Assembly: GCF_030717995.2 (NCBI RefSeq)
Contig: NZ_CP157742.1
Location: 1 to 64,000 of the forward strand
Reading direction: 5' to 3'
Source: Methylomarinum sp. Ch1-1
GTDB lineage: Bacteria > Pseudomonadota > Gammaproteobacteria > Methylococcales > Methylomonadaceae
DNA length: 64,000 nucleotides
This document shows positions 30,159-58,200 of the stretch, piece by piece. The notes beneath the pieces are model-generated. The model was not told where the DNA came from, made no database searches, and worked only from the letters and a program-made list of their open reading frames with translations. The position numbers were made by a program, and so were the translations under genes. Numbering within the stretch: the stretch's first letter is position 1; the number at the start of each line of letters is the position of its first letter.

Positions 30159-30187
30159 GGTTGAGTAGACCGGTTTCTTTCGACCAA

Positions 30188-30282
30188 ATAACATCGTACT
30201 TGCCATGCTTCTCTGGAACGCCCCGCCGCACGCGGCTACTACGTGATTGCAAATCGTTTGTTATTTCATCAATTGTTACCAA
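30188..30282. repeat. 95 bp palindromic insertion between intron domains V and VI
   Basis: The segment has imperfectly complementary ends (AAATAACATCGTACTTGC and, reversed, AAATAACAAACGATTTGC) and a GC-rich centre CCCCGCCGCACGCGGC. ACCAA occurs just outside on both sides (30183-30187 and 30278-30282), like a 5 bp target duplicate. It could be a miniature element inserted in domain VI, or an unusual long domain VI arm. Confidence 0.45.
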
Positions 30283-30292
30283 GCCCCTCACA

Positions 30293-30325
30293 GAACCGTG
30301 CTTGCGCTATTTACGCACACGGCTC
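30293..30325 (-). ncRNA. Group II intron domain V
   Basis: GAGCCGTGTGCG and GCAAGCACGGTTC on the minus strand form the conserved 33-34 nt catalytic hairpin with an AGC-type lower stem. It is followed by TGTGAGGGGC, as expected. Confidence 0.85.
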
Positions 30326-30350
30326 CTCATTAAGAACCCTATTCACGGAT

Positions 30351-31670
30351 TCAGAATAGATTCACCAAGATTTTAGGTTTCGGCAGTGGAAAACGCGCTA
30401 ACAATAGAGCAAACTTTGCCCAACTACAGCAGTTTCTCCGGCCTCGCCGATTCAGCCATTTGTGTAGAATGCGTTGCACTTGATAAAAGTACAGGTTTAT
30501 TCCTCGACTGTTATCGGTGACGCCATAGTAGCCGTAATGGCCTCGCAGTTTGCGGGCGGTTCGCTTGAGTATTTCGGCGGTCGGCAGGTTTCGGTTTGCC
30601 TTAAGCCATGCACGGTAGGCTTTCAGCTTCGCCGTTAGGCGTTTACCGATCGTCTTCCGCTTCATCCGAAAGCGTTTTCCGTCTCGCGTCCGTGTACAGT
30701 AGTGGGTAAACCCCAGAAAATCAAAGGTCACCGCCTTTTCGCCACGCGCTCTCGCACGTTTGACCGCTAACGGGCCAAATTCAATGCATTGCGTTTTCTC
30801 CGGTGCTAACGTCAGCCCAAACAGGGCGAGCCGTGCTTCTAGCTCGTTCCGGAATCGTTTGGCATCCGCTTCCTGCTGGAAGCAGACGACAAAGTCGTCC
30901 GCATAGCGTATCATTCGGACGACTCCACCGCAGCTTTTCGCAAACTTGCGGGTCATCCACAAGTCTAGGCTGTAGTGCAAATAGAGATTGGCTAGCAAGG
31001 GCGATATCACACCACCTTGCGGCGTGCCTGTTTCACTGGCTTTAAACTGTCCGTCTTCGACGATACCCGCTTTCAAGAAGCGTTTGATGTAGCGCAATAC
31101 GCGTTTGTCGGCGATACGATGCGCGAGAAAAGCCATCAGCTGCTCTTGGTCTACCGTATCGAAAAAGCCTTTTATATCGGCTTCCACAATGTGGTTTATC
31201 GGTCGATTTTCGACTGTTTGGCTTAACGCTCGCAGCGCATCATGACAGCTTTTACCCGGCCTGAATCCATACGAGTCGTCTATAAAGTCTTGCTCATAGA
31301 TAGCCTGTAAGATTTTGACCAGCCCGGCTTGCACCAGTTTGTCTTCCAGCGCCGGTATCCCTAAGGGCCTTAACTTATCAGTCCCGGGCTTGGGGATGTA
31401 AACCCGTTGCACCGGTTGGGGTATGTAGGCCATTCGGTGCAGTTTATCAACTAGCTGCTGAAGATTTTCCAGTAAGTTGTTCTCATACTGTTGCTTGGTG
31501 ACTCCATCAATACCTGACGCAGCATGATTCCTCAGCGCGTCAAAGCATCCCCATAACATTTCCACTGTCATCAGATGAAACAAGCTGGTGAACTGACAGT
31601 TCGGTTCGTTACGGGCTTTCTCCGCTATACGTTGCAGTTTCGTGGTTACCGTTTCTTCGTTTCTGGGCAC
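30351..31670 (-). CDS. ltrA: Group II intron reverse transcriptase/maturase
   Basis: A 439-residue intron-encoded protein. The RT domain includes AASGIDGVTKQQYENNLLEN, RPLGIPALEDKLVQ, DSYGFRPGKSCHDAL, GTPQGGVISPLLANLYLHY and the catalytic MIRYADDFVVCF (YADD). The C-terminal maturase part is short (FDFLGFTHYCTRTRDGKRF ... YQVQRILHKWLNRRGRR). No C-terminal HNH endonuclease is present, so it probably moves without second-strand cleavage. The gene is intact. Confidence 0.93.
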   Translation of the reverse strand: MPRNEETVTTKLQRIAEKARNEPNCQFTSLFHLMTVEMLWGCFDALRNHAASGIDGVTKQQYENNLLENLQQLVDKLHRMAYIPQPVQRVYIPKPGTDKLRPLGIPALEDKLVQAGLVKILQAIYEQDFIDDSYGFRPGKSCHDALRALSQTVENRPINHIVEADIKGFFDTVDQEQLMAFLAHRIADKRVLRYIKRFLKAGIVEDGQFKASETGTPQGGVISPLLANLYLHYSLDLWMTRKFAKSCGGVVRMIRYADDFVVCFQQEADAKRFRNELEARLALFGLTLAPEKTQCIEFGPLAVKRARARGEKAVTFDFLGFTHYCTRTRDGKRFRMKRKTIGKRLTAKLKAYRAWLKANRNLPTAEILKRTARKLRGHYGYYGVTDNSRGINLYFYQVQRILHKWLNRRGRRNCCSWAKFALLLARFPLPKPKILVNLF

Positions 31671-32393
31671 GTTCGGTATGTCTCCTTAACGTTGTTTCTT
31701 AATGTAACGGTCTTCCCTCCCGCAGCATTACCCGCGTTCATCGGTACTACACCGTTATCCGACTACCTATAGGCATTTGTCTTTCTTACTTTATGATCGC
31801 TTGTCCGACATACTCGCTTCCTTGTGAGACCTGATAGGTTCTCCCAGGTTGCCGTTTATTCCCGGTGTCCAGCATGCCATGCTCTTCGACCCCGGAGAGG
31901 CAGAGTAAGACTTGTCATGACGCCTTACTCTGTGTTGATTTCCGCATAGTTAACTACGTCATCCCTCTCTTGTCTCTGCTTTCGAGGCTCAATCACTTCA
32001 GCTTTCGCTTACGGCCTGTTGTCTTGAGTTGCTTTGTGCTTAATCTTTGGGGTTACCCCCGCCGACCCAAAGACTCTACCCAGTGGCTGACCGGCCTTCT
32101 GGGACGGGATTCTCGCCCGCTGGAATAAACGACCTTGCCTGGCCGCACTAACTACTCACCCCTAAAAAAAGTCAAAAAAAGACTTGACAGGTTTTTCGGT
32201 GCAAAAAAGACGTTTTCCGAAATAGGGACGAATGTCCCCTCAATTCGCCATGTCTATCACGCTCCTGGGATTTTGTGACAGTCACGCAAGGCCTGTTTCA
32301 AAATGTTGTTTTTCGTTCGCTCAGCGAGCGCTCTGAAGGTCGAAAAAAGGCCATGCGATAATAGCGTCATGAAAACAGACGTAGTCATAGCGA

Positions 32394-47465: not shown

Positions 47466-49259
47466 ATGCCCATCATACTCAACAGACGGAAAATAAATCT
47501 GTCCCCTTTGTTCACTTCCGGAATCAGCCGAGAGCGGCTTAAGAGTAATTGTGCAGTTTTCAAGATCACTCCGGCTCGGTGGGCCGGCCCACTTGGGCCA
47601 CTTATCGAGTACCGACAGATTGGGCTTGATAACGATCGCTTGGTCTTTAATCTCACCCCGAAAAAAGTAATCCGAATTCATCGCATCAAGCACGGAAATA
47701 GCAGATTCTGCGATGGCAGCCTCATTCTTGAGGCTCAATTCCTTGCCCTCGTGCGTGACCCTGATAACAACTTGCGCCTCTATTCCGTGCTGCTCTATCT
47801 CAATCCCGCTCTGGCTCCGCTCGTGTATGACGCCAACCCAAGCCGACTGGATTTTCGCACATGACTCGGTGGTCTCGCCTTTATATGCCCCGGAAATAGT
47901 CTTATAACCTCTCTGTTTGATCGCTTCCCCGTATAACGAGAGCCGCTTCTCGTATCTGCCTCGGTATTCCTCCACGTTGCTTTTGGTTATTGTTTTGTCC
48001 GGAAGATTAATAGTGGCTCCTGCGTCCACGGCGGGAAGGAAGTGCAACATTTTCTTCACCCAGAGATAACTCATAGCTAATGCCTCTGGAGGATAGGCCA
48101 CAGCTTTCAGAAGCAGTGCTGAGGCCGACGTGCCTTGCGCATCTTCAAATCTCTCTACAGGGAAACCAGCCTTTCGAAATTTGTCAACAGCTAACTTATA
48201 CCACATTGCTGCTTCAGCAACGTTCTGACCTATACCCCATCCTTCGATATACAGACGACCCAACCAAAGTGCTCCATGTGGATTTCCCTGCGATGCAGCC
48301 TTTCGAAACCATTTCTCAGCTTCGGCATAATCTTTGGAGACGCTTTGTCCATTCGCATACATAGCGCCGACTCTCCATTGTGCATCTGAATACTCCTGTT
48401 CAGCAGCTTTCCGATACCATTTCATTGCTTCGGAATAATCCCGTGATACCCTTTGTCCTTGGCCATAATACATTGTTCCAAGCGCTGTCTGAGCAGGCGG
48501 ATATCCCTGCTCAGCAGCTTTGCGGTACCATTTCATTGCTTCGGAATAATCCCGTGATACCCTTTGTCCTTGGCCATACATTGTTCCAAGCGCTGTCTGA
48601 GCAGGCGGATATCCATGCTCAGCAGCTTTGCGGAACCACTTCATCGCCTCCGAATAATCCTCATCCACACCCGAACCACTGTGATACATCCAGCCGAGAA
48701 CAGCCTGTCCTTTTGGGTACCCTTGCTCAGCGGATTTACGGAACCACTTCATCGCCTCCGAATAATCTTTGCTCACGCCGCGGCCTTCCGCATACATTGT
48801 ACCAAGAGCATACTGTCCTCTAGGGTTTCCCTGTTCGGCGGATTTACGGAACCACTTCATCGCCTCCGAATAATCTTTGCTCACGCCGCGGCCTTCCGCA
48901 TACATTGTACCAAGAGCATACTGTCCTCTAGGGTTTCCCTGTTCGGCGGATTTACGGAACCACTTCATCGCCTCCGAATAATCTTTGCTCACGCCGCGGC
49001 CTTCCGCATACATTATACCAAGAGCATACTGTCCTCTAGGGTTTCCCTGTTCGGCCAGAGGTGTCAAAAGGCGGATTGCTTTTGCATAATCTTTGGAGTC
49101 AAAGGCTGATCGTGCCTCCTTTATATCTGCGTCAGAAGTTTTTAAGGTAATGGCCGCTTGTCCCTCTTCCCGGTCTGCGTTCGGTGGTACAGAGGCACAT
49201 GCAGCACTCAACAAAATGAGCAAAAAGACTGCCTTGAACGATAACCTGCTGGTATTCAT
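47460..49259 (-). CDS. Sel1-repeat lipoprotein (cassette-like gene)
   Basis: A 599-residue protein. The lipoprotein signal has lipobox LLSAAC (Cys about residue 21). Eight Sel1 repeats of about 36 residues lie between about 62 and 355 (consensus GQYALGxMYAEGRGVSKDYS, EAMKWFRKSAEQG). A C-terminal domain of about 240 residues is unrecognised. Three repeats are nearly identical at DNA level (48740-49060), suggesting recent expansion. Sel1 proteins are scaffolds in the periplasm or cytoplasm. The stop lies in an attC-like site, and GTTAGGC occurs 28 bp upstream of the ATG, as if the gene were a mobile cassette. Confidence 0.82.
   Translation of the reverse strand: MNTSRLSFKAVFLLILLSAACASVPPNADREEGQAAITLKTSDADIKEARSAFDSKDYAKAIRLLTPLAEQGNPRGQYALGIMYAEGRGVSKDYSEAMKWFRKSAEQGNPRGQYALGTMYAEGRGVSKDYSEAMKWFRKSAEQGNPRGQYALGTMYAEGRGVSKDYSEAMKWFRKSAEQGYPKGQAVLGWMYHSGSGVDEDYSEAMKWFRKAAEHGYPPAQTALGTMYGQGQRVSRDYSEAMKWYRKAAEQGYPPAQTALGTMYYGQGQRVSRDYSEAMKWYRKAAEQEYSDAQWRVGAMYANGQSVSKDYAEAEKWFRKAASQGNPHGALWLGRLYIEGWGIGQNVAEAAMWYKLAVDKFRKAGFPVERFEDAQGTSASALLLKAVAYPPEALAMSYLWVKKMLHFLPAVDAGATINLPDKTITKSNVEEYRGRYEKRLSLYGEAIKQRGYKTISGAYKGETTESCAKIQSAWVGVIHERSQSGIEIEQHGIEAQVVIRVTHEGKELSLKNEAAIAESAISVLDAMNSDYFFRGEIKDQAIVIKPNLSVLDKWPKWAGPPSRSDLENCTITLKPLSADSGSEQRGQIYFPSVEYDGHA
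48734..49058. repeat. Tandem 108 bp repeats inside the Sel1 gene
   Basis: Three units of 108 bp are almost identical, each containing GCCGCGGCCTTCCGCATACA. They code for one Sel1 repeat each. Confidence 0.8.
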
Positions 49260-49508: not shown

Positions 49509-50396
49509 TTACCTCAACTTCTTCTTAACATCAGCCAACTCCCGCTTCCTCGCCAGCGCCTGATCAAACGTGTCCCCGGGCTTGGCGAATTCCGCCACCG
49601 ATGTGCCGGTCAAACGCGCGATCACCGCCGCCCTGGTCTCGCCCGGCCTGGCCGCCCGGTCGATTTCCTCTTCGGTCAGTTGCTTCCTCTCCTTCGGCTG
49701 GCCTTTCATGCCGAATTGGAACTGAAAATGGGTCACCGTTCGGCCGGATTTGCGCTGGCCGTATTTAACCCACAGGTTGGAATGCGCGTTGATCTCCTCG
49801 ATGGCCGGATCGATTACCCGCTTCTTCAGATCCCCCAGTCGCTTGTATTTGTCGCCGACCTGGAACTGATTTTTCAGCCACTCGACCTCGATTTCCCGCT
49901 CGCCGACAGAGCTCCATTGCACTAACAATTCGTATAGGCGGATCGAATAGATGCTCTCGAAGCGGGCGACATGCTTGAGCTTGTACTGGGTGAACTCCTT
50001 CGACAGCCTGGACAGGTAGGGAATGATGCCGGAAGCGAAGTTCAGCACCAGCTTGCCCTCCCCCGGTATGTAATCGATGCTGCTGATCCAGCGGGTCTTG
50101 CGTTCGGTGATCTGGGGGTTTTCGGGATCGGGATCGTTGATGACCACGCTGCGGTCGTACAGCTTTTCCGCCGCTTTCTTCAGGTCCCGGTAGGCGTTCG
50201 TGAAGCTGTCCAGGCCGGCCAGGTCGACAATCTCGGCGGCCGAAACTTCGAATTGATACTGCTCTGTCAATTCCTCCCTGGAATCAATCTGGGCGATGCA
50301 CGCCAGCAACACGCGCTGTTCCGACAGGCTCAGCAGATAGCTGGCCTCGACGACTTTGTTGGATTTAACAACGATCAAGGACGCGGGCTTTTCCAA
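49509..50396 (-). CDS. repA: Plasmid replication initiator (Rep_3 / RepB family)
   Basis: A 295-residue protein with two winged-helix domains typical of Rep_3 initiators. The first is VVEASYLLSLSEQRVLLACI ... VSAAEIVDLAGLDSFTNAYR. The second is FTQYKLKHVARFESIYSIRL, YELLVQWSSVG, FQVGDKYKRLGDLKKRVIDP and AIEEINAHSNLWVKYGQ. It would bind the iterons directly upstream (50490-50850) to start replication and repress itself. This is the main evidence for a plasmid replicon. A C-terminal tail of about 65 charged residues exceeds the core family. Confidence 0.92.
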   Translation of the reverse strand: MEKPASLIVVKSNKVVEASYLLSLSEQRVLLACIAQIDSREELTEQYQFEVSAAEIVDLAGLDSFTNAYRDLKKAAEKLYDRSVVINDPDPENPQITERKTRWISSIDYIPGEGKLVLNFASGIIPYLSRLSKEFTQYKLKHVARFESIYSIRLYELLVQWSSVGEREIEVEWLKNQFQVGDKYKRLGDLKKRVIDPAIEEINAHSNLWVKYGQRKSGRTVTHFQFQFGMKGQPKERKQLTEEEIDRAARPGETRAAVIARLTGTSVAEFAKPGDTFDQALARKRELADVKKKLR

Positions 50397-50463: not shown

Positions 50464-50850
50464 AATAAACCGCCATGTCGTCATGTAACGATCAATTTGT
50501 CGTTGTATGAGATCAATCTGTCGTCATATCCAAAGAACCAACGATCAATTTGTCGTCATATCGGCGCTGCAGGCCTTTAAAATCAAGGGTTCACTAGCAA
50601 ATCCAAGATTTATAGAGCGCTCAACGATCAATTTGTCGTCATATGAGATCAATTTGTCGTCATGTAACGATCAATCTGTCGTTGTTAAACGATCAATTTG
50701 TCGTCATATAGAGATCAATTTGTCGTCATATCGGCGCTGCAGGCCTTGATTTTACTGACCAAAAACGCCCTTAAAATATATTAAAAAAGGAAAAAACAAA
50801 AAAGGGAAAGGGAGGAATTTTTGATTAACGATCAATTTGTCGTCATATTG
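50464..50850. other. Iteron-type replication origin
   Basis: Nine copies of GATCAATTTGTCGTCATAT (with small variants) start at 50490, 50511, 50543, 50626, 50647, 50669, 50691, 50713 and 50830. The core runs are spaced 21-22 bp, i.e. on one helix face. Two copies are followed by the same TCGGCGCTGCAGGCCTT tail (50560 and 50730 regions). An AT-rich stretch at 50757-50810 could be the unwinding element. It lies immediately upstream of the Rep gene. Confidence 0.88.
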
Positions 50851-51995: not shown

Positions 51996-52133
51996 GGTGT
52001 GCTCCTGATAGGGTTGGGTTAGATAACAGTATAGCAGCTTATTACAGTTTGTAAAGTGTAAATATGATAATTACATAATTATGATAATTATCATTTAAAA
52101 TTACACCTTGCTTTCACCCCCTTCTTCTCAATA
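51996..52133. promoter_or_regulatory. kfrA upstream region
   Basis: AT-rich, with AATTATGATAATTATCATTTAA forming an inverted repeat (ATGATAATTATCAT, 52081-52094). It is a likely promoter and operator for the kfrA-like gene, since KfrA proteins repress themselves. The assignment is inferred. Confidence 0.4.
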
Positions 52134-53343: not shown

Positions 53344-54117
53344 CTAATTGCCGCGCGGCCGTTTGTCGCATTCCCAGGCGATGATTCCATCGACCACGCC
53401 TCTCGCCGTTTGATAGTCGAAGGCGTTGAGTAATGAAATCAGATGTTGGTTCAGCAGCCCCAATGCTTCCGGCGAATCAGGCTCAATAAATCGGGCTTGG
53501 CTTGCGCAATCTCCCGCCCATAGTTGCGAATAGGACCTGACGTTTTCGCCCTCTGACGCCAGAATTTCTGCCGCATACGGTGAATATTCAACCATCGCCG
53601 GGTCCCAGTTCACCCGTTTCAGCGTATGCAGATTGCCGAGTAAAACCAATATAGGTGTCTCCCCTGCCCGCTTCGCCAGCTGCATCGCCATCCATTCGTC
53701 ACGCCGCATCTTGTTACCAAATCCAGCGTCGATGGCGACCAGACTCAGGCAGGCACCGGCATTGCGCAGCGCCGCCAAGCTGTCGAGCATGTCCCGGTAA
53801 GCTTGATGATCGATCGCCGGCGCAATGTCGATATCGGCTGCCGTCACACCGTCTCGCCCGATCTTCTCGATCGTGTCCTGCTGATTGCTGGCGATCTCCA
53901 GCGCGACGGTCAGGCAGTCGCCCTGCTTCAAATGTTCATTGATCATCGAGCGAAACAGCCTAACCGATTCCGGGCGCTGATGGGATTCGCCGATGAAAGT
54001 GATGCTGTTCGGTTCAGGATTAAGATGGCCGTGAATTTGGCCGAGATCCCCCGCCATCGACATAACGGGGATCAGGAGTAATATGATATGGTATGATATG
54101 ATATTATTCCATATCAT
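53344..54117 (-). CDS. ChaN/EreA-superfamily secreted protein
   Basis: A 257-residue protein. FIGESHQRPESVRLFRSMIN carries the Gly-Glu-x-His motif of the ChaN/TIKI/EreA superfamily, with LVLLGNLHTLKRVNWDP supplying the second His motif. The N-terminal hydrophobic signal (IISYHIILLLIPVMSMA) is encoded by the pentamer repeat block 54081-54124, and the ATG lies in that block. The gene is last in the ParA operon, followed by a terminator. Members bind haem or metal or act as peptidase/esterase-like enzymes; no function is proven. Confidence 0.75.
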   Translation of the reverse strand: MIWNNIISYHIILLLIPVMSMAGDLGQIHGHLNPEPNSITFIGESHQRPESVRLFRSMINEHLKQGDCLTVALEIASNQQDTIEKIGRDGVTAADIDIAPAIDHQAYRDMLDSLAALRNAGACLSLVAIDAGFGNKMRRDEWMAMQLAKRAGETPILVLLGNLHTLKRVNWDPAMVEYSPYAAEILASEGENVRSYSQLWAGDCASQARFIEPDSPEALGLLNQHLISLLNAFDYQTARGVVDGIIAWECDKRPRGN

Positions 54118-54124
54118 ATCATTT
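54081..54124. repeat. Pentamer repeat block A
   Basis: In 5 bp register: ATATG ATATG GTATG ATATG ATATT ATTCC ATATC ATATC ATTT. The left part is the reverse complement of the right, giving a palindrome ATATGATATGG/CCATATCATAT. It lies between the parG-like gene and the ChaN-like gene. Confidence 0.85.
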
Positions 54125-54415
54125 AGTCAGCTCCTTGATTTTCTTGTCGATTTCTTTCTCGACAGCGGCTAGGCAAAACTTCTGCATGCTGTCCGGCGTG
54201 TGCTCGGCGATGTATTTCAGTTTCAGCAAATAAGGTTCGGACAGTCTCAGGTTATAGACCTTGATGATGTCCTCGCGCACGCTTTCCGCTTCCCATGGAT
54301 AAGCGGCATTGCGTTTCGGTTTGGCCTTCGGCGTCGTTTTCTCTTCGGCGCCGGTTAAAAAATTATCCAGGTCTGACGTCTTTTTAGTCGGGGGTCTGCT
54401 TTTCAATTCACTCAT
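54119..54415 (-). CDS. ParG/omega-like ribbon-helix-helix partition partner
   Basis: 98 residues from ATG 54415, which overlaps the parA stop by 8 bp (ATGAGTGA). The first ~45 residues are charged and probably disordered. The C-terminal part [20 protein letters not shown] followed by [18 protein letters not shown] has the strand-helix-helix pattern of a ribbon-helix-helix. Small centromere-binding proteins encoded directly after a short ParA define type Ib partition systems. Its likely targets are the pentamer blocks. A longer upstream start exists but would begin inside parA. Confidence 0.72.
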
Positions 54416-55055
54416 CGGCAAATACCTCGTTGTACAGTGTTTCCATCTCACTAACCGCTTTCGGGTCCTTGGGCTTCAATTCGACTACAGCCTGGCCGTC
54501 TTTGGCCGCTTTTCGATACGCGATGCGGTCGCGGATGATGACGTCGGCCAGTTCGAGATTGTCGAAATCATCCAATAGTTTTCCGGTGTCGTCGGATTCA
54601 TGAACGGACGGGTTGGTCGAAGAACGGCTGATCACGACGGTGGCTTGCAGGTCCGGGTTGAAGCCCTTGGCTGTCTCAACCAGCGTATCCATCTGGTCGA
54701 GTGTCCAGATGTCGAATTGCGACGGCTGGATGGGGATATAGGCTCTTTCGGCGGCCACTAACGCCGACCTGAGTTCGATCGAGTCGCGTCCGCCGGCGTC
54801 GATGATGATGTCCTGGTAGCGCGTCGCGAGATCCTTGACTTCCGCCGCCAGGCCTTTGCCGAATTTCTGCACGCAAGCCACCCGCGGAGTGATGTTCTCC
54901 TCGTCCCGACTCTGCGCCCAATAATTCGCGCTGCCCTGCGGGTCGGTATCGATCAACAGAACGTCGCGTCCGGTCAAGGCGCGCATTGCAGCCAGGTTCG
55001 TCGCCAGCGTGGTTTTGCCGGTGCCGCCCTTCTCGCCGCCAATTAAAATAATCAT
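54408..55055 (-). CDS. parA: ParA-family partition ATPase (type Ib)
   Basis: A 215-residue protein. The deviant Walker A is [19 protein letters not shown], Walker A' is [15 protein letters not shown] and Walker B is [18 protein letters not shown]. It lacks an N-terminal helix-turn-helix, which places it in the short type Ib group where a separate small protein binds the centromere. The ATG overlaps pentamer block B. It moves plasmid copies apart on the nucleoid together with the downstream gene product. Confidence 0.92.
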
Positions 55056-55113
55056 ATTATATCATCCTATATCATATCGTATGGTATGAAATCATATCAT
55101 ATCATATCATACT
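55053..55113. repeat. Pentamer repeat block B
   Basis: In register: ATATT ATATC ATCCT ATATC ATATC GTATG GTATG AAATC ATATC ATATC ATATC ATACT. Twelve units run between the 179-residue gene and parA, reaching the parA start codon. Confidence 0.88.
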
Positions 55114-55117
55114 GTTT

Positions 55118-55657
55118 TTAATCTCGATCATCAGGCAGTGTCAATCCGCCCCGCTCCATGAGTCGTGCTTTTTTGAGCATCGAATGGGCTGTCGGGTAAG
55201 TCTTGTAAAGCTCGCCTATCGTCCGGTAATAAGCGATGGTGTCGAACGGTTTTTCGGCTTGCTCGACGGTGGCCCGGGCGAGCAGTCGCCTGAAATCGGG
55301 GGAGGCGGTGACAATGCGGATGCCCTGGATGATCGAGGTAGCCGAATCGACCAGCAGCAAATGAAAGGGCAGGTAGCTTGAATTGTCTTCTATGGCTTCG
55401 TCGCCGGCCAGATGAATGGTGAAGGCCAGGTCGGACCAATCCAGGAAGCCGTCGATCTTGAACAGGAAGAACAAGACGTCATGTTCGTACGCAAGACCGA
55501 AAGAGGTGGAGCCGTTCAGGAACGCGGCGATTTGCTTTTCGGTCAGCGAAAAGTTGAAGGTCAGCAAGGGGCTGCCGCTGGCCAGCATGATGCTCATGCC
55601 TTCGGCCGGCATATCGTGATCGAACCTCTGACCGACTCCTAAGCGTAGTAAATCCAT
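55118..55657 (-). CDS. Unknown protein of the ParA operon (179 aa)
   Basis: No family is recognised. The protein is mixed alpha/beta with FNFSLTEKQIAAFLNGSTSF and YEHDVLFFLFKIDGFLDWSD, followed by VDSATSIIQGIRIVTASPDF, and a helical C-terminus with AHSMLKKARLMERGGLTLP. There is no signal peptide. Both ends of the gene touch pentamer blocks (B downstream, C upstream). Because of that placement it is probably co-regulated with parA. It could be a host-interaction or maintenance factor, but this is only inferred from context. Confidence 0.7.
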   Translation of the reverse strand: MDLLRLGVGQRFDHDMPAEGMSIMLASGSPLLTFNFSLTEKQIAAFLNGSTSFGLAYEHDVLFFLFKIDGFLDWSDLAFTIHLAGDEAIEDNSSYLPFHLLLVDSATSIIQGIRIVTASPDFRRLLARATVEQAEKPFDTIAYYRTIGELYKTYPTAHSMLKKARLMERGGLTLPDDRD

Positions 55658-55670
55658 GTCAGCGTCTTTA

Positions 55671-55725
55671 GTATGATATGGTATGAAATGATATCATATC
55701 ATATCATACCATATCATATCATACT
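55671..55725. repeat. Pentamer repeat block C
   Basis: In register: GTATG ATATG GTATG AAATG ATATC ATATC ATATC ATACC ATATC ATATC ATACT, eleven units. The orientation inverts after the fourth unit. It lies between the two unknown genes. Confidence 0.88.
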
Positions 55726-56269
55726 ACTTTTTAGCCGCCGTGCTGTACAGATTGCTGAACAAGCGGATCACTACAAAGATCATGGTTTGGGTGATCTTGA
55801 TCGCCGGAACCCGGCTTGGGCTTTCGGAGGCGAAATCATCGATGGCGTCGTTCATGAATTTCACCAGTCCCGTCTGGGTCACTTCATCGGCCGCGCGCTG
55901 CGAGAAACGCTCCTGCAATTTGGCCCGCATCTTCGGGTCCATTGTTTTTTCGGCGATCAGCGATTGCAACTCGGCGTCGAGCAGGGCGGCCTGTTTTTCC
56001 ATCCACTCCCCGCTAAGCTCGTTTTGCTTGGGCGTTTCCCCGAAAGCGTGTTGGAAAACGCAGATGACGTCGAAGCATAAGTCCATGAACAGATAGGCCA
56101 TGTCCTGATCTTGTTCGGCGACGAAGTTCGGAAAGATGGCGAAGATCGCTTGCGCCAATGCCGGCTGGTCAATCTGGAATTGGTCCAGGATCGATTTGCC
56201 GGTTTCTTCGTCGACGCTTTTGGCGTATTCCAAAGCCTTGTAGAGTTCGGGGGTGCTGAGTTCGTGCAT
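55724..56269 (-). CDS. Unknown protein of the ParA operon (181 aa)
   Basis: Mostly helical and acidic: ELYKALEYAKSVDEETGKSI and MAYLFMDLCFDVICVFQHAF, then MDPKMRAKLQERFSQRAADE. The C-terminus is hydrophobic (ITQTMIFVVIRLFSNLYS), possibly an amphipathic or membrane-touching helix. It is first gene of the operon, with block D just upstream of its ATG and block C at its stop. I do not recognise a family. Confidence 0.7.
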   Translation of the reverse strand: MHELSTPELYKALEYAKSVDEETGKSILDQFQIDQPALAQAIFAIFPNFVAEQDQDMAYLFMDLCFDVICVFQHAFGETPKQNELSGEWMEKQAALLDAELQSLIAEKTMDPKMRAKLQERFSQRAADEVTQTGLVKFMNDAIDDFASESPSRVPAIKITQTMIFVVIRLFSNLYSTAAKK

Positions 56270-56279
56270 GGTCTTGTTG

Positions 56280-56324
56280 GTATGATATGATATTATTTCA
56301 TATCATACTATATCATTTCATATT
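56280..56324. repeat. Pentamer repeat block D (operon promoter side)
   Basis: In register after the first bases: TATG ATATG ATATT ATTTC ATATC ATACT ATATC ATTTC ATATT. It lies 10-55 bp upstream of the first gene's ATG, where the operon promoter should be, so binding here would repress or organise transcription. Confidence 0.82.
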
Positions 56325-57214: not shown

Positions 57215-58089
57215 GTCTTAATTCCTTCTTCATAAGGTCTGGTGTTCGAACGTCAAGCGGGCAACCTATTTGCTCGAGTTAGATTGTGTCTTAATCCCTT
57301 CTTCATAAGGTCTGGTGTTCGAACGCATATTTTGCAAACGTTGGGCACGGACTGGGGTCTTAATCCCTTCTTCATAAGGTCTGGTGTTCGAACGTCTCAA
57401 GGGCGGCAGCCAGACTTGGATACTCGTCTTAATCCCTTCTTCATAAGGTCTGGTGTTCGAACACGGCGGGCCGAAGGATTGGCCGCAATCGCTAGGTCTT
57501 AATCCCTTCTTCATAAGGTCTGGTGTTCGAACTACCGGGATTTGACAATATGACCGTCCACTTTGTCTTAATCCCTTCTTCATAAGGTCTGGTGTTCGAA
57601 CTTTGAGGAAAATATTATGAGCTTACTATGCCCAGGTCTTAATCCCTTCTTCATAAGGTCTGGTGTTCGAACACCTTAATAAGGTAGAGCTGTATGTTCA
57701 GTATAGCGTCTTAATCCCTTCTTCATAAGGTCTGGTGTTCGAACGTCCTTTATGTAGAGAATGTTCCAAAGAATTGGTCTTAATCCCTTCTTCATAAGGT
57801 CTGGTGTTCGAACTCACAGGTTCCTGTATAATGGAAACCCAGTTAGGTCTTAATCCCTTCTTCATAAGGTCTGGTGTTCGAACATTACAGGCTAATCTAA
57901 ACTGATGAAAGAGTCTTAATCCCTTCTTCATAAGGTCTGGTGTTCGAACTTGGCAGAATCATGGATTCAGACTCAGTTAAACTGTCTTAATCCCTTCTTC
58001 ATAAGGTCTGGTGTTCGAACTTAACAAAGAAGAAGATTAGAGGCATGTCTAGGTCTTAATCCCTTCTTCATAAGGTCTGGTGTTCGAAC
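57215..58089 (-). CRISPR. CRISPR array, 13 repeats and 12 spacers
   Basis: The 37 bp repeat on the plus strand starts GTCTTAATCCCTTCTTCATA and ends TCTGGTGTTCGAAC; reversed it starts GTTCGAACACCAGA and ends GGGATTAAGAC. Spacers are 29-36 bp, mostly 32-34, all different. The first repeat (57215) has a C to T change, marking the old distal end. The AT-rich flank at 58090-58200 is therefore the likely leader, with transcription on the minus strand. CCTT...AAGG in the repeat can form a small stem. No cas gene is in the window. Confidence 0.96.
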
Positions 58090-58200
58090 TGCTCGAATCT
58101 ATAAACAATTTAATATCAATGGCTTGCAAAGGTGGTTGTCAGGAATTTTCAATTCTGAAAAGTTAGCGTATTGCATAGTCGCCAATGTTACATTTTCGAG
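58090..58200 (-). promoter_or_regulatory. Putative CRISPR leader
   Basis: AT-rich sequence directly right of the last perfect repeat (AATCTATAAACAATTTAATA). It is assigned as leader because the degenerate repeat is at the other end of the array. Confidence 0.5.

Follow-up and report, generated by a model that had tools for sequence, protein, structure and literature searches.

Type Ib partition loci of plasmids are recognised by a short ParA ATPase that lacks an N-terminal DNA-binding domain, by a small partner gene directly after parA, whose product has a ribbon-helix-helix fold and a flexible N-terminus, and by a centromere of direct and inverted repeats that precedes the operon; the partner that binds these repeats also activates ParA and acts as a repressor of the operon, and the plasmid is stabilised by the locus. 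In the passages drawn upon from the papers on two such systems, omega of pSM19035 is described as binding contiguous heptads, direct or inverted, that overlap promoters, with at least four in a row needed to activate ParA (PMC9499535), and ParG of TP228 as coating tetramer boxes and repressing its own operon (PMC7308502). The locus considered here lies in the first 64,000 nucleotides of contig NZ_CP157742.1 of Methylomarinum sp. Ch1-1 (this whole stretch is referred to as the window), where an operon on the minus strand encodes, in order, two conserved proteins (P5 and P4), a short ParA, a small partner protein and a ChaN-like open reading frame (ORF), and where four blocks of 5-bp repeats stand before the first gene and at most of the gene junctions. 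Judged by sequence, its plan is that of type Ib loci, from which it differs in the repeat unit, the step, the number of places occupied and the overlap with coding sequence, and we argue below that the blocks are probably read by the partner as a centromere.

Like this locus, the delta/omega/parS system of pSM19035 combines a short ParA with a small ribbon-helix-helix partner and carries contiguous direct and inverted repeats in several promoter-overlapping blocks (PMC9499535, PMC5016525). Unlike it, pSM19035 uses 7-bp WATCACW units rather than 5-bp (G/C)ATAT units and transcribes parA and the partner gene separately, and the passages of these papers mention no array in coding sequence, in contrast to the coding overlap found here. 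The 7-bp period of omega-type sites is not the one seen in our loci, as lags of 5, 10, 15 and 20 bp are high, with a z of 2.8 at lag 7 and of -6.1 at lag 14. The parFGH system of TP228 resembles the present locus in its ParA-type ATPase and its ribbon-helix-helix partner, of which flexible N-terminal tails, coating of the centromere and repression of the operon are described (PMC7308502, in part); its degenerate tetramer boxes with AT-rich spacers are unlike the contiguous pentamer lattice at most junctions here, where lag 8 reaches a z of only 2.3. The par2 locus of pB171 also resembles ours in involving more than one region, with centromeres parC1 and parC2 and constructs of the form parC1-parA-parB-parC2 (PMC4270457, in part). 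A description of a 5-bp partition array was not found in the literature searched, which covers few subscription journals; among the matches listed, none contained '5-bp repeats' or 'pentanucleotide', and the sole match to 'pentamer repeat' concerned, by its title and abstract, the human kinetochore. The parC1 and parC2 sites of pB171 are composed of other short repeats, and we know of no blocks at other junctions of that system.

The first-pass annotation of this DNA had described four blocks written in ATATC or its complement GATAT, with an inversion inside each, lying upstream of or between the genes and at every junction of the operon. All four are present where it placed them, numbered here 1 to 4 by coordinate (Table 1), and Tandem Repeats Finder returns period-5 arrays at the blocks together with one period-10 row. 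The pentamers keep 5-bp register as described, and are more exactly read on the minus strand as one lattice of (G/C)ATAT units with variants (AGTAT GATAT GATAT GGTAT GATAT ... CATAC CATAT CATAC). Each inversion is a switch from runs of G units to runs of C units, and it mostly preserves the register because reverse units sit at 2 mod 5 from forward units, leaving a single lattice. The blocks lie upstream of and between genes as stated; they also run into them, which the annotation had missed, taking in the parA start codon, the partner stop codon and the first ChaN-like codons, and the stop codon of P5 (55726-55724) overlaps the edge of block 3. Most junctions carry an array, but that of parA and the partner, where the two genes overlap, does not.

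Related loci obey the same geometry. Among 75 blocks of 24 loci (picked among those with blocks, with L012, L013, L015 and duplicates left out), distances between forward units are multiples of 5 in 324 of 329 cases, 136 of these 329 coming from a single locus, L032; the corresponding count for reverse units is 95 of 108, and forward-to-reverse distances equal 2 mod 5 in 278 of 310. Over 684 lattice positions in 23 loci, with L032 left out and the phase of every block chosen to fit, the consensus is G/C 72%, A 76%, T 75%, A 74%, T 71%. The motifs TATGATA and TATCATA are one site with the central base pair turned. The orientation of units in these 23 loci is non-random: shuffles give 182 plus or minus 8 pairs of neighbours with like orientation, whereas 251 are observed. 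Changes from G to C (62) outnumber those from C to G (36), both lying under the shuffle value of 83. Blocks of a single orientation exist in some loci, and L032 has 17 identical units in a run.

All eight occurrences of the 12-mer ATATCATATCAT in the whole 4.77-Mb genome (three contigs) fall inside the blocks, which rules out a genome-wide repeat family, and so do all nine occurrences of ATATCATATC in the window, against 0.07 expected from shuffles. When unit density is scanned along the whole 81,342-bp contig that holds the window, one place stands out besides the four blocks, a weaker spot of 5 units at 52063-52093, upstream of kfrA. We note that 9-bp TAATTATGA repeats upstream of kfrA, at window positions 52059-52091, coincide with this sole other unit-dense spot. 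A second array on contig C3 (245,923 bp) was considered and rejected, the surrounding 10 kb of its single 12-mer match, at 132106, holding no array.

The association of the lattice with parA and the partner extends well beyond this genome. Searches for the partner covered GTDB genomes (22 loci), plasmids (6 records), 311 genomes of the order, of which 16 have the partner, and 369 genomes of the class, in which it was found in its own genome and as two weak matches. Among 26 non-redundant loci with adjacent parA and partner (near-duplicates were removed, as were L032 and L037, which hold a partner without an adjacent parA), 25 carry the lattice in the 250 bp that precede parA, at a score threshold of 20.6; the lowest of the 25 scores is 22.4 and the highest of 223 control windows is 21.2. 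The repeats are thus not absent from related plasmids with the same genes, an outcome that the earlier annotation had singled out as telling against it, and by sequence these 25 loci show the direct and inverted repeats ahead of the operon that mark type Ib loci. The sole upstream exception, in Methyloprofundus (L012), has no array; a single gene there encodes ParA fused to a shortened partner, and another parA lies next to this gene. Self-similarity at a lag of 5 bp upstream of parA stands at z 17.3 over shuffles (14.4, 12.2 and 11.4 at lags 10, 15 and 20), and after the partner at z 12.2, in 23 loci (near-duplicates L023 and L031, the UR115 locus L015, which is the same as L039, and L012 and L013 being left out); two control regions are flat, with lag-5 values of 0.25 and 0.28 versus 0.43.

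By record title the loci belong mostly to methanotrophs, and also to Nitrosococcus (L014), Competibacteraceae or Contendobacter (L033-L035), Myxococcales (L036, L038) and the alphaproteobacterium UR115 (L015). Three contigs from metagenome-assembled genomes, L019 (titled Rhodospirillales) and L025 and L029 (both titled Dehalococcoidia), have genes that closely resemble those of methanotrophs, so that these titles may reflect binning errors. Of the 311 genomes of the order, 4 contain the exact 15-mer ATATCATATCATATC, all of them among the 16 with the partner (hypergeometric 4.8e-6, uncorrected for kinship), and a 17-mer occurs in 5 of the 311 at 10 places, 8 of which are on the partner contig and less than 2 kb from the partner, the other 2 being the chromosomal palindromes described below. 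Phage-borne arrays were considered and rejected, as 59 matches to the partner pattern and 3 to P5 in viral contigs yielded none that was confirmed. Locus L022 has, at 713-873 and just upstream of its full parA, a second array copy with a stretch matching the first 40 parA residues.

Some relatives carry arrays at further junctions. In L024 six genes are found (a gene with the motif GGQTGVDRAALD, P5, P4, parA, partner and ChaN-like), with arrays at five places, namely before the first gene and at every junction but the overlapping one of parA and the partner. Arrays stand at five corresponding places in L025 and in L028, the latter having a first gene similar to that of L024 and one extra 4-unit spot; the array-flanked extra gene with motif GGQTGVDRAALD occupies 3667-4146 in L024 and 3611-4096 in L028. 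On the Methylobacter sp. YRD-M1 plasmid (L009), which is matched by a contig of G450, a genome of the same family as the one studied here, P4 is absent, and the two arrays that flank it elsewhere stand about 100 bp apart. From this absence and from the multi-array operons, it seems that genes have been gained and lost between the arrays.

Arrays are also present within protein-coding sequence. In six loci (the window, L020, L021, L024, L025 and L026) the array after the partner is at the same time the start of the ChaN-like gene, where it encodes a MIRNHIISYLIILLLLP-type segment that is signal-peptide-like by eye. Three of the 26 loci (Methylocaldum L011, Methylomagnum L013 and Myxococcaceae L036) have lattice between the end of parA and the C-terminal part of the partner; this array lies inside the partner coding sequence in L011, and in L013 if the long start is read, and L036 has one array in the gap between parA and partner and another, of 4 units, inside coding sequence. 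When ten such stretches (six ChaN-like starts and four partner-linker stretches) were recoded synonymously with the codon usage of the parA of each locus, observed array units exceeded recoded ones in all ten (p 0.0002-0.027), and lag-5 similarity gave p < 0.05 in six; as the stretches were chosen once arrays had been seen, these p-values serve as guides. Codon choice that favours the array points to selection acting on the DNA itself in these coding stretches.

Turning to the proteins, the short ParA of the first-pass annotation stands: with its 215 residues, and with its best Pfam matches beginning at residues 2-3, it leaves no room for an N-terminal DNA-binding domain, and by its match to the 'ParA family partition ATPase' model NF041546 (residues 3-210) it is a close relative of that family, although its score of 167.3 bits falls under the curated cut-off of 180 bits. 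The gene of the small partner directly follows, its start overlapping the end of parA. These two genes are what the loci have in common; of the 29 loci searched, some of them truncated at contig ends, a minority gave matches to P5, P4 and the ChaN-like gene. In L032 the 17-unit array stands about 80 bp before the partner gene with no parA between, and the only ParA relatives in that genome were matched over the P-loop region.

The C-terminus of the partner is strongly conserved with a ribbon-helix-helix-like pattern (25-row alignment A2), and the N-terminal part carries an FxxGA-like patch (FLTGA in the window) that recurs in 5 of the 6 partners read of related ParA proteins (Trichlorobacter FIAGA, Allochromatium FTAGA, Burkholderia FVDGA, Aquicella FIEGA and Spongiibacter FASGV); the Polaromonas partner is without it. 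The C-termini of those partners, where readable (the Spongiibacter frame ends early), are unlike that of the window, and different repeats stand beside the related ParA genes: CAAGT-type steps in Allochromatium (top lags 20, 5, 14 and 10), ATTGT/ACAAT in Trichlorobacter (lag 5), ACTCA in Burkholderia (lags 8 and 13) and a 9-bp step in Polaromonas. In 4 of nine hand-picked contrast loci (H22, H23, H24, H26, H27, H28, H31, H33 and L042) lag 5 ranks first or second upstream, one of the four, Aquicella, being in very AT-rich DNA; with z values near 4 and 21 lags tried at each locus, these lags are suggestive only. Because the patch is shared and the C-termini and repeats differ, a division of labour fits in which the N-terminus of the partner would contact ParA and its C-terminus would read the local unit.

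Taken together, we consider it likely that this is a type Ib-like partition locus in which a ribbon-helix-helix-like partner coats the lattice, as a centromere and probably also as an operator. The distributed centromere combined with operators that the first-pass annotation had suggested is partly supported and remains the best reading. Since related plasmids keep the arrays, even inside coding sequence, the arrays look like a spread-out docking site that would help to distribute the plasmid to daughter cells. We infer binding by the partner, both roles of the blocks and the packing of dimers from these patterns, and by analogy with omega and ParG the following sequence of events may be envisaged. 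The partner would form a ribbon-helix-helix dimer whose beta-strand, KVYNLRL, reads the pentameric lattice and whose N-terminal tail contacts ParA through the FxxGA patch. Dimers would load side by side on blocks of 9-13 steps, at about two steps per helical turn; as a 5-bp step places neighbours about half a helical turn apart, they would occupy both faces of the DNA or one dimer would cover two steps. Filled blocks would present many partner N-termini to ParA and, spread over about 2.2 kb, act jointly as a centromere that is moved by ParA along the nucleoid. Partner bound at blocks 4 and 2 would also repress the operon, which is likely because block 4 stands between the first gene and a promoter-like site (TTTAAA-16-TATAAT, 10/12, at 56427-56400, the best such site) and block 2 lies over the ribosome site and start codon of parA.

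A more far-reaching form of this proposal, which we advance tentatively and hold to be possible rather than probable, is a half-turn centromere, in which dimers every 5 bp on opposite faces would form two-sided filaments, and filaments at successive junctions would make a spread-out centromere and an operator for each gene, with the DNA code kept inside the signal peptide and the partner linker; the wider ParA clade (Allochromatium, Trichlorobacter and others) may then use the half-turn step with other units matched to other partners. If the partner does read the lattice, the locus would offer a short-step centromere with clear rules of unit, phase and orientation order and many natural variants, and the packing of ribbon-helix-helix proteins, together with the link of repeat number, repression and segregation, would become directly testable. 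The coding arrays would be natural cases of a partition site hidden in protein-coding sequence, and partition loci on the plasmids of methanotrophs could be searched for by this lattice as a signature.

A number of observations weigh against the reading of the arrays as a centromere bound by this partner. Some concern the ribbon-helix-helix fold, which the first-pass annotation had proposed and which is plausible from the conserved pattern and the predicted helices but unproven: the Pfam scan gave no match for the window's own partner, and the similarity of partners to the Arc-like DNA binding domain PF03869 is a weak profile one and not significant (best E 0.027 in 2 of 7 partners and E 0.034 in 4 of 19). 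No solved homologue was found by sequence (0 matches in the PDB), the low-confidence structure model (mean pLDDT 67.8, pTM 0.25) shows an extended segment followed by helices in the expected order, at 60-72 and 77-97, and lacks a strand, and a Foldseek search with it returned 2 matches, both with E above 3 and neither meaningful. Others concern the arrays. The lattice directly after the partner passes the threshold in 13 of the 26 loci, although L018 (19.4) and L022 (18.1) just miss it with arrays visible there; single loci can be weak by upstream lag 5 (L036 z 0.1, L011 z 1.8); and L037 has a partner without adjacent parA and a short array remnant only. Single palindromes TATGATATGATTTCATATCATAC without a surrounding array occur in two chromosomes, that of the own genome (L083 1501-1517, G000:C2:3839810) and that of G582 (L079 1501-1517, G582:C2:1207219), a genome in which no partner was detected, and a single array-like palindrome lies at L104 5818-5839 in a viral contig without parA or partner. 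Lastly, 3 of the 4 window blocks fold better as RNA than shuffles (z -3.06, -5.95 and -3.71).

The alternative that survives best, though we judge it unlikely, is that the arrays are operators only, the partner repressing at each junction and the true centromere lying elsewhere or in one block. The array upstream of parA, covering its ribosome site and start codon, is indeed the most widespread (25 of 26, with 13 of 26 for the array after the partner), and the promoter-like site stands upstream of block 4; yet arrays also follow stop codons and sit inside coding sequence, the density scan finds no other such lattice block on the plasmid, and in pSM19035, by the passages of PMC5016525 and PMC9499535, operators and centromere coincide. 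We regard as improbable that the arrays act in the mRNA, as hairpins for processing, stability or translation coupling at gene junctions. Besides the folding of the three blocks, the convergent order of G then C yields inverted repeats, and the pure direct array of L032 also folds better than shuffles (z -6.92); however, the block before parA, the most conserved position, is no better than shuffles (z -0.86), nor is the block after the partner in L038 (z 0.20), and the inverted arrangement varies more than the 5-bp phase does, some blocks having one orientation throughout. More improbable still is another DNA-binding protein as reader, be it a host factor, ParA itself, P4 or P5: the latter two belong to the operon and have arrays on their flanks in several loci, but they are unmatched in most of the 29 loci (of limited length), including the array-keeping L014 and L033-L036, and L032 keeps array and partner without an adjacent parA. 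Least probable is that the arrays are a functionless simple repeat, selfish or grown by slippage. Pentamers could indeed expand in this way and L032 has its pure run, but within this genome the 12-mer does not occur outside the par locus, the lattice is retained at its position in 25 of 26 relatives, and it keeps its phase across interruptions and is favoured where codons are synonymous.

The coordinates of blocks and genes are collected in Table 1. P5 is without a match in Pfam, NCBIfam and PHROG.

Table 1. Repeat blocks and operon genes in the window, with the evidence for each.
Feature	Position	Strand	Evidence
Array block 4, 9 lattice steps, before the first gene of the operon	56280..56324		Lattice reading, Tandem Repeats Finder
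Array block 3, 11 steps, between P5 and P4, overlapping the edge of the P5 TAG stop	55671..55725		Lattice reading, Tandem Repeats Finder
Array block 2, 13 steps, upstream of parA, holding an AGGA ribosome-site-like step and the parA ATG	55049..55113		Lattice reading, Tandem Repeats Finder
Array block 1, 9 steps, holding the partner TGA stop and the initial codons of the ChaN-like ORF	54081..54125		Lattice reading, Tandem Repeats Finder
P5, conserved operon protein, 181 aa	55724..56269	-	5' of parA also in L009, L021, L024, L025, L028, L029
P4, conserved operon protein, 179 aa	55118..55657	-	L024, L025, L028, L029, partial in L022; phrog_12389 E 2.8e-29
parA, short ParA-family ATPase, 215 aa	54408..55055	-	Pfam AAA_31 E 2.5e-16, CbiA 7.5e-15; NF041546 E 3e-49; phrog_164 E 6e-45
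Small partner, 98 aa, ribbon-helix-helix-like C-terminus, proposed array-binding protein	54119..54415	-	25-row alignment A2; weak Arc-like matches in relatives; model helices 60-72 and 77-97 (mean pLDDT 67.8)
ChaN-like ORF, signal-peptide-like N-terminus encoded by block 1	53344..54117	-	PF04187 E 8.3e-4, 19.8 bits, under the model cut-off of 27.7

The contig is taken for a plasmid because it carries kfrA, a nuclease gene and a gene for a Rep3 initiator (49509-50396, Rep3_N E 2.2e-38). About five 22-bp repeats at window positions 50623-50731, upstream of this last gene, are likely replication iterons, and 108-bp tandem repeats are found at 48295-49055. A CRISPR-like array with repeats of about 37 bp (GTCTTAATCCCTTCTTCATAAGGTCTGGTGTTCGAAC) was recognised by eye at 57217-58090, and two group II intron matches (RF02005 and RF00029) at 30160-32113 on the minus strand are the sole RNA-family matches in the window.

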